Of a stretch of 64,000 bases of DNA, positions 54,388-57,300 are shown piece by piece (the stretch's first letter is position 1; the number at the start of each line of letters is the position of its first letter). The DNA is from Williamsia sp. DF01-3 (GTDB lineage Bacteria; Actinomycetota; Actinomycetes; Mycobacteriales; Mycobacteriaceae). The stretch spans positions 4,419,733 to 4,483,732 of the forward strand of contig NZ_JALKFS010000005.1 in assembly GCF_023051145.1 (NCBI RefSeq), given 5' to 3'. Made by a program: the position numbers and the translations under genes. Under the pieces are notes generated by a model. It was not told the origin of the DNA. It was given only the letters and a program-made list of their open reading frames with translations, and did not search any database.

Positions 54388-57300
54388 TTACCGGTAGTCG
54401 CTGCTGAAGCCGTAATCGTCCAGCGGGACAGCCGCACCCGACGGGGCACCGAAGGTGCCGTCCGGGCTGTAGTAGGTGTCGTCGTACGACGGCACCGCGT
54501 ACGCGGCCGCACGTGCTTCTTCGGTCGGCTGCACCTGGATGTTCCGGTACCGGTTGATACCGGTTCCGGCCGGGATGAGCTTACCGATGATCACGTTCTC
54601 CTTGAGACCGATGAGCTTGTCGCTACGGCTGTTGATGGCCGCATCGGTGAGCACACGAGTGGTCTCCTGGAACGACGCCGCCGACAACCACGACTCGGTC
54701 GCGAGCGATGCCTTGGTGATGCCCATGAGCACCGGACGTCCGGCAGCAGGTTCGCCGCCTTCGGCCACGACGCGACGGTTGGCCGCTTCGAACTCGGCGC
54801 GCTCGGTGAGCGAACCGGGCAGGAACTCGGTGGCACCGGAGTCGATGATCGTCACGCGACGCAGCATCTGACGAACGATCGTCTCGATGTGCTTGTCGTG
54901 GATCGACACACCCTGGCTCCGGTAGACCTCCTGGACCTCGTTGACCAGGTGCACCTGCACCTGACGGGGACCCATCACGCGCAGCACCTCGTGCGGATCG
55001 GCAGCACCTTCCATGAGCTGCTGTCCGACCTCCACGTGGTCACCATCGGCCAGCAAACGCTCGCTGCCGTCTTCGTGCTTGAAGACGCGCAGACGCTGAC
55101 GCTTCGAGATCTTGTCGTAGACAACCTCTTCCGAACCGTCGTCAGGCGTGATCGTCATCTTGTAGAAGCGATCATCGTCTTCGAGACGGATCCGTCCGGA
55201 GACCTCTGCAATCGGGGCCTTGCCCTTGGGGACACGGGCCTCGAACAGCTCCTGCACACGCGGCAGACCACCGGTGATGTCGTCGCCGACGCCACCCTGG
55301 TGGAAGGTACGCATGGTCAGCTGGGTACCGGGCTCACCGATCGACTGGGCCGCGACGATACCGACGGCCTCACCGATGTCGACGAGCTTGCCGGTGGCCA
55401 TCGACCGTCCGTAGCAGGTGGCGCAGACGCCGGTGCCGGTGCCACAGGTCAGGACCGAACGGACCTTGACCTGTGAGATGCCGGCCTCGAGCAGCGCCTC
55501 GATCGCGGGGTCACCGAGATCGAATCCACGCTCGATGATGACGTTGCCATTCGCGTCGACCGCGTCGGTGGCCAATGTCCTTGCGAACGTTGACGTCTCG
55601 ACGTGGGCGTCACGGATGAGCGAACCGTCCGACTGCTTCTCGGCGATGATCGTGTTGATGCCACGCTCGGTGCCACAGTCGGTTTCGCGCACGATGACGT
55701 CCTGCGAAACATCCACCAGACGACGGGTCAGGTAACCCGAGTCGGCGGTGCGAAGCGCGGTGTCGGCCAGACCCTTACGAGCACCGTGGGTGTTGATGAA
55801 GTACTCGGCCACGGTCAGGCCCTCGCGGAACGAGGACTTGATCGGACGCGGGATGAACTCACCCTTCGGGTTGGTCACAAGACCCTTCATGCCCGCGAGC
55901 GAGCGAATCTGGGTCATGTTGCCCGCGGCACCGGACTTCACGATCATCGGGATCGGGTTGTCGTCGGGGTAGTGCGCCTCCATGGCGGCACCGACCTCTT
56001 CGGTCGCCTGCTTCCAGATCTCGACCAGGGCGTCGCGACGCTCGGCACCGGTGAGGGCACCACGCTGGAACTTGCGCTCCAGGCCGTCGGCCCGCTCCTC
56101 GTACTTGTCGAGGATCTGCTTCTTGTCCGGCGAGACGAGCACGTCCGACATGGCGATCGTGACACCCGAGCGAGTTGCCCAGTAGAAACCGGCGTCCTTG
56201 AGCTTGTCGACGGTCTGCGCGACAACGATCATCGGGTAACGCTCGGCCATGTCGTTGATGATCGTGGCCTGACGCTTCTTCGGCATCTGCTCGTTGACGA
56301 ACGGGTAGTCGTTCGGCAGCAACTCGTTGAACAGCACGCGACCCAGGGTGGTGTCGATGGTCCACGGGGTGCCGAACTTCCAGCCCTCCGGGAACTGCGC
56401 ACGCTCGATCTCACGCGTCGGACGCTGGTGCGTCAGACGGACCTTGATCGGGGCCTGCACACTGAGCAGCCCACGGTCGACAGCCATCTGCGCCTCGGCG
56501 GCGTGGAGTACACGCCGCGCTCGACGTCGCCGTCGGTCGAGGCGGTGTACGCGCCGATCGCCTGCTCCTTGAGCGTGGTCAGGTGGAACAGACCGGTCAC
56601 CATGTCCAGACGCGGCATGGCAAGCGGACGACCCGACGCAGGCGACAGGATGTTGTTCGACGACAGCATCAGGATGCGTGCCTCGGCCTGAGCCTCGGCG
56701 CTCAGCGGCAGGTGGACTGCCATCTGGTCACCGTCGAAGTCGGCGTTGAACGCCTCACACACCAGCGGGTGCAGCTGGATGGCCTTGCCCTCCACGAGCT
56801 GCGGCTCGAACGCCTGGATACCCAGACGGTGCAGGGTGGGTGCACGGTTGAGCAGAACCGGGTGTTCGGCGATGACCTCTTCGAGCACGTCCCACACGGC
56901 GGGGCGCTGACGCTCCACCATCCGCTTGGCGGACTTGATGTTCTGTGCCTGGTTCAGGTCCACCAGACGCTTCATCACGAACGGCTTGAACAGCTCGAGT
57001 GCCATCAGCTTGGGCAGACCACACTGATGCAGCTTGAGCTGCGGGCCGACGACGATGACCGAACGGCCCGAGTAGTCGACGCGCTTGCCGAGCAGGTTCT
57101 GACGGAAACGACCCTGCTTGCCCTTGAGCAGATCGCTCAACGACTTCAGCGGGCGGTTACCCGGTCCGGTGACCGGACGGCCACGACGGCCGTTGTCGAA
57201 CAATGCGTCGACGGACTCCTGCAGCATCCGCTTCTCGTTGTTGACGATGATCTCGGGGGCACCGAGGTCGATCAGTCGCTTGAGGCGGTTGTTGCGGTTG

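Follow-up and report, generated by a model that had tools for sequence, protein, structure and literature searches.

Across cyanobacteria, the division of the gene for the largest RNA polymerase subunit into rpoC1 and rpoC2 is a stable trait. In the excerpted text of PMC10802570, the cyanobacterial β′ is described as being made as two polypeptides—an arrangement that resembles the locus reported here, in that the largest subunit is spread over two frames, but that differs in the place of the split. When the cyanobacterial models are mapped to intact RpoC, the γ/β′ junction comes out between residues ~639 and ~682 of this RpoC, whereas the break described below falls at residue 615, some 24 to 67 residues upstream.

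A second point of comparison is a survey of 2,307 proteobacterial genomes, which, in the sections available to us, ascribes most partial or missing entries for RpoB or RpoB′ to frameshifts (PMC6403173). The cases that it omitted were exceptions in their own species, and its authors suspected a sequence error in many of them, close relatives being intact. As far as those sections go, the situation is the same as that of rpoC here, except that the survey concerns Proteobacteria and our record an actinobacterium.

Finally, residual indels of long-read assemblies share several features with the record studied here: according to extracts of PMC12007338 and PMC8812927, they are mostly single-base deletions, sit mostly in homopolymers, and disrupt conserved genes of a single assembly whose relatives have them whole. 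They differ in that the rpoC site consists of just two identical bases, and in that the use of long reads is in our case presumed from contig sizes. In the extract of PMC12007338, deletion errors of a long-read assembly were linked to homopolymers between 2 and 8 bases long, with a small share at non-repeated bases—an error profile that leaves room for an error at a run of two such as the one in rpoC.

Within the window (the whole 64,000-nucleotide stretch of Williamsia sp. DF01-3 DNA that was analysed), rpoC occupies the minus strand from 58343 to 54388, downstream of and adjoining an intact frame which we take to be rpoB, going by its sequence and operon position. The initial annotation had placed the loss of the RpoC frame after VYSTP (about residue 615), within 56494–56503, and its resumption one nucleotide off. 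Mapping of the frames bore this out, with the break at 56499, and the locus is composed as follows:

58419–61925, minus strand: rpoB (presumed), a single open frame of 1168 aa directly upstream of rpoC.
56433–58343, minus strand: 5′ part of rpoC, from GTG at 58343 to a premature TGA at 56435–56433; 636 aa, of which 615 are correct and 21 out of frame; Rpb1 domains 1 and 2 and the first portion of domain 3 (Pfam).
56499, minus strand: break site, a single G where relatives have one base more; the last in-frame codon is CCG at 56501–56499 (Pro 615).
56485–56496, minus strand: GAGG (56496–56493), 5 nt, then ATG (56487–56485); coding codons, also found in seven of the eight intact congeners.
54388–56487, minus strand: 3′ part of rpoC, from ATG at 56487 to the normal stop; 699 aa; the remainder of Rpb1 domain 3, then domains 4 and 5 (Pfam).

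The in-frame segment thus listed runs from 58343 to 56499, where residue 615 closes ...GVYSTP. The 3′ frame sits one base off, has no stop codon as far back as 56727 and overlaps the first frame by 295 nt. Zero-frame codons at the break read ACG CCG CCG AGG, and the missing base belongs to a run of two. Taken together, the two pieces contain all five Rpb1 domains; only domain 3 (residues 564–735 of intact RpoC) is cut in two, the break falling inside it. The remark that the site is not a slippery heptamer can be extended: no heptamer of the form X XXY YYZ occurs in the zero frame across the whole first rpoC ORF. Likewise, an Rfam scan of the window returned no matches at the gathering threshold.

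To place the break among relatives, we used the first 615 residues as a query against 61 genomes, our own included, and obtained a match in 56 and none in five. In all eight congeners, RpoC was 98–99% identical and encoded by an open frame of 1319 codons with no break. The intact protein of one of these congeners, G005, measures 1318 aa, which is the length that the initial annotation had said a single added base would restore. Near-full rpoC matches came from 51 relatives, 50 of which have frames of at least 1290 codons, and four further relatives matched partially. Among the named loci listed (at least 80), the best RpoC identity was 90% (Mycobacterium, Mycolicibacterium).

At the break site itself, 33 relatives were aligned (29 loci from the genome search plus four among the at least 80 named loci). 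Every one of them reads through in uninterrupted phase, encoding Pro and next either Ala or Ser (Pro-Ala in three and Pro-Ser in five of the eight congeners), and the window is one base shorter here than all 33. Comparison with rpoC of close relatives, the check named in the initial annotation, hence found eight of eight congeners intact and carrying one base more at 56499. Two relatives deserve separate mention. In G024, the rpoC open frame spans 1169 codons, as against at least 1290 in the other 50 near-full matches. In Streptomyces sp. WAC08241 (L051), the RpoC stretch after WTPPA is unlike that of the other Streptomyces loci compared and seems to be read out of frame, yet the frame is open.

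We then considered the assembly as a whole. The window's contig accounts for 5.25 Mb of a 5.59-Mb, six-contig assembly, and two genomes are colinear with it: G005, with 94.7% nucleotide identity over 686 kb aligned, and G006, with 95.4% identity over 259 kb aligned. A census on ORFs picked by composition was dropped as noisy, being beset by antisense ORFs and false in-frame stops, and was replaced by codon-pattern-filtered DNA comparisons. In the two-way version, 800 kb of our genome was set against 800 kb of G005, and a gene was accepted only if third codon positions held at least 60% of its substitutions. A frameshift was called strict if the third-position pattern held on both flanks (at least five substitutions each), no second gap lay 15 nt or less away, and phase was not regained within 60 nt; the two-flank filter removes, in both genomes, sites close to gene ends or to other gaps.

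This way, 25 strict internal frameshifts, that in rpoC among them, were counted in 511 genes (563,007 nt) of our genome versus two in 528 genes (570,484 nt) of the colinear G005 (two-sided binomial p = 2.7e-6). The advice to regard other frameshifts in this record with suspicion was therefore sound. Twenty-two of the 25 events are 1-nt deletions, two are 1-nt insertions and one is a 2-nt insertion (deletions versus insertions, p = 1.6e-4); some of them may be true gene losses. At the census rate, a gene of 3,957 nt is expected to receive 0.18 hits, so rpoC is not singled out.

Without the strict filter, the contrast between the genomes is smaller, in part because the reverse list registers those loci again, viewed from the opposite genome: our genome had 70 rows of frame-shifting gaps, spread over 65 of 511 genes, versus 51 rows over 50 of 528 genes in G005, and the 1-nt deletions among these gaps numbered 50 versus 10. 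A three-way census assigned genes with non-3n indels to our genome (16 of 186), G006 (8 of 184) and G005 (9 of 178); these counts precede the removal of start-site differences and compensating gaps, and several of the eight in G006 are loci already counted, viewed from the opposite genome. Counting all single-base gaps, we observed 196 deletions versus 152 insertions relative to G005 (~657 kb aligned; p = 0.02) and 75 versus 55 relative to G006 (raw counts), with 60 versus 66 in the control pair, G005 to G006.

For the annotation of the 25 broken genes, their intact G005 copies served as queries. The Pfam search covered 21 of the 25, namely rpoC and 20 others (19 matched a family and one was without a match); an NCBIfam scan covered 16 of those 21 genes, rpoC included. 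The broken set includes cysS, lysS, a tetrapyrrole methylase/uroporphyrinogen-III synthase fusion (HemD-domain) and a dnaJ-type gene. Both cysS and lysS are essential genes. By a search of our whole genome, its only cysS lies in two pieces in different frames (C5:4708271-4709637). A second strong cysS match (C5:3087128-3088210) covers positions 1–367 of 466 and falls under the cysS cut-off; it is probably an mshC paralogue, a name that we infer, the mshC model having also matched cysS. The lysS gene is likewise in two pieces (C5:4778639-4780101), and since a longer, intact lysX-like protein is encoded elsewhere (C5:495404-496840), lysS on its own is weaker evidence.

The window also holds a second strict internal frameshift, at ~6923 on the minus strand, in an alpha/beta-hydrolase gene whose G run lacks one base that both relatives have; this is probably the same kind of error as that in rpoC.

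As to the sequence context of the gaps, 15 of the 22 strict deletions touch a homopolymer of at least four bases in our genome, and four touch runs of 1 or 2. Six-base runs of G005 were one base short in our genome in 18 of 76 cases (reverse direction, 1 of 42) and those of G006 in 5 of 24 (reverse, 0 of 18); the G005/G006 control pair gave a mixed picture, 3 of 31 one way and 0 of 25 the other. For other lengths in the G005 comparison, the fractions of short runs were 8 of 730 at five bases (reverse, 3 of 749), 0 of 6 at seven or more (reverse, 1 of 1) and 27 of 101,388 at two (reverse, 19 of 101,386); against G006, runs of two displayed no excess (11 of 39,372; reverse, 13 of 39,338). Runs of two show no firm excess, and since the base missing from rpoC belongs to that class, its loss cannot be argued from homopolymers; the cause at 56499 is instead deduced from the essential nature of the gene, the unbroken frames of the congeners and the overall load of errors in the record.

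Several gaps in the G005 comparison lay within or next to the motif GCCGGC, and some deletions fell in a GCCGGC of the relative (G005 reference genes 1608, 1734 and 339). Single-base gaps in this motif numbered 6 of 958 (reverse, 2 of 939) in the G005 comparison and 1 of 379 (reverse, 0 of 381) in that with G006, which is suggestive at most of a modified-base calling error as the cause of some gaps. The motif is absent from the rpoC break site of the congeners aligned.

Three lines of evidence, namely the frameshift census, the disruption of the only cysS and an unbroken rpoC in all eight congeners, led us to decide on a residual consensus error, rather than a real biological feature, as the explanation for the rpoC frame break (probability roughly 0.95), as the initial annotation had deemed most likely. 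Three things that such an error would lead one to expect were found: relatives are intact (1319-codon frames in eight of eight congeners), frameshifts are in excess over a colinear genome (25 in 511 versus 2 in 528 genes), and other indispensable genes are broken (lysS and the sole cysS, each in two frames). That one strain should have both its sole cysS and its rpoC split, along with about twenty other conserved genes disrupted mostly by a single missing base, beside a relative that has them all whole, is not plausible; an assembly with leftover deletions is. The living strain would then carry an intact rpoC and the deposited consensus would lack one base at 56499, presumably through under-calling in long reads that went uncorrected by accurate-read polishing; a 5.25-Mb contig in a six-contig assembly is consistent with long reads. 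The earlier reasoning that an essential gene cannot be null supports an error but is not airtight alone, because—on the excerpted evidence of PMC10802570—β′ is naturally split in cyanobacteria.

The best surviving alternative, albeit a highly improbable one, is a real, recent one-base deletion in this one strain. Here, β′ would be split within Rpb1 domain 3 into residues 1–615 plus a tail and a second polypeptide starting from ATG 56487 (residue 620), and the two would assemble into a working polymerase like the cyanobacterial β′ (PMC10802570, as excerpted). The pieces are suited to it in that they jointly miss only four residues (616–619), retain all five Rpb1 domains with domain 3 alone divided, and have a GAGG 5 nt ahead of ATG 56487 that, judged by sequence, could by chance act with it as an internal start. 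However, the identical GAGG-ATG is coding sequence in seven of the eight intact congeners, the break lies inside domain 3 and not at the cyanobacterial junction (~639–682), none of the eight congeners has it, and cysS, lysS and other genes are broken likewise in the same assembly. Only about half as probable as that is a real inactivating mutation that another copy of rpoC would offset. Nothing was found in its favour: no second rpoC was found in our genome, where the Rpb1 domain 1 model and the 615-aa query gave one match each, although the assembly (completeness 98.87) could miss sequence. Least probable of all is programmed –1 ribosomal frameshifting near 56499 to yield full-length β′, since—even though the 295-nt overlap means that re-reading one base reaches the second frame—the first ORF is devoid of a zero-frame slippery heptamer, the window has no Rfam match at the gathering threshold, the arrangement is not conserved (eight of eight congeners unbroken, 33 of 33 aligned relatives in phase), and frameshifting would need to provide all β′.

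A probable consensus error in rpoC, apparently one of many in this record, bears on how the genome is to be read. Extrapolated from 25 events per 563 kb, with a coding share of 90% assumed, ~220 genes of the 5.59-Mb record may be falsely broken, and the interpretation of apparent pseudogenes, split genes and 'novel' short ORFs in it should await polishing.
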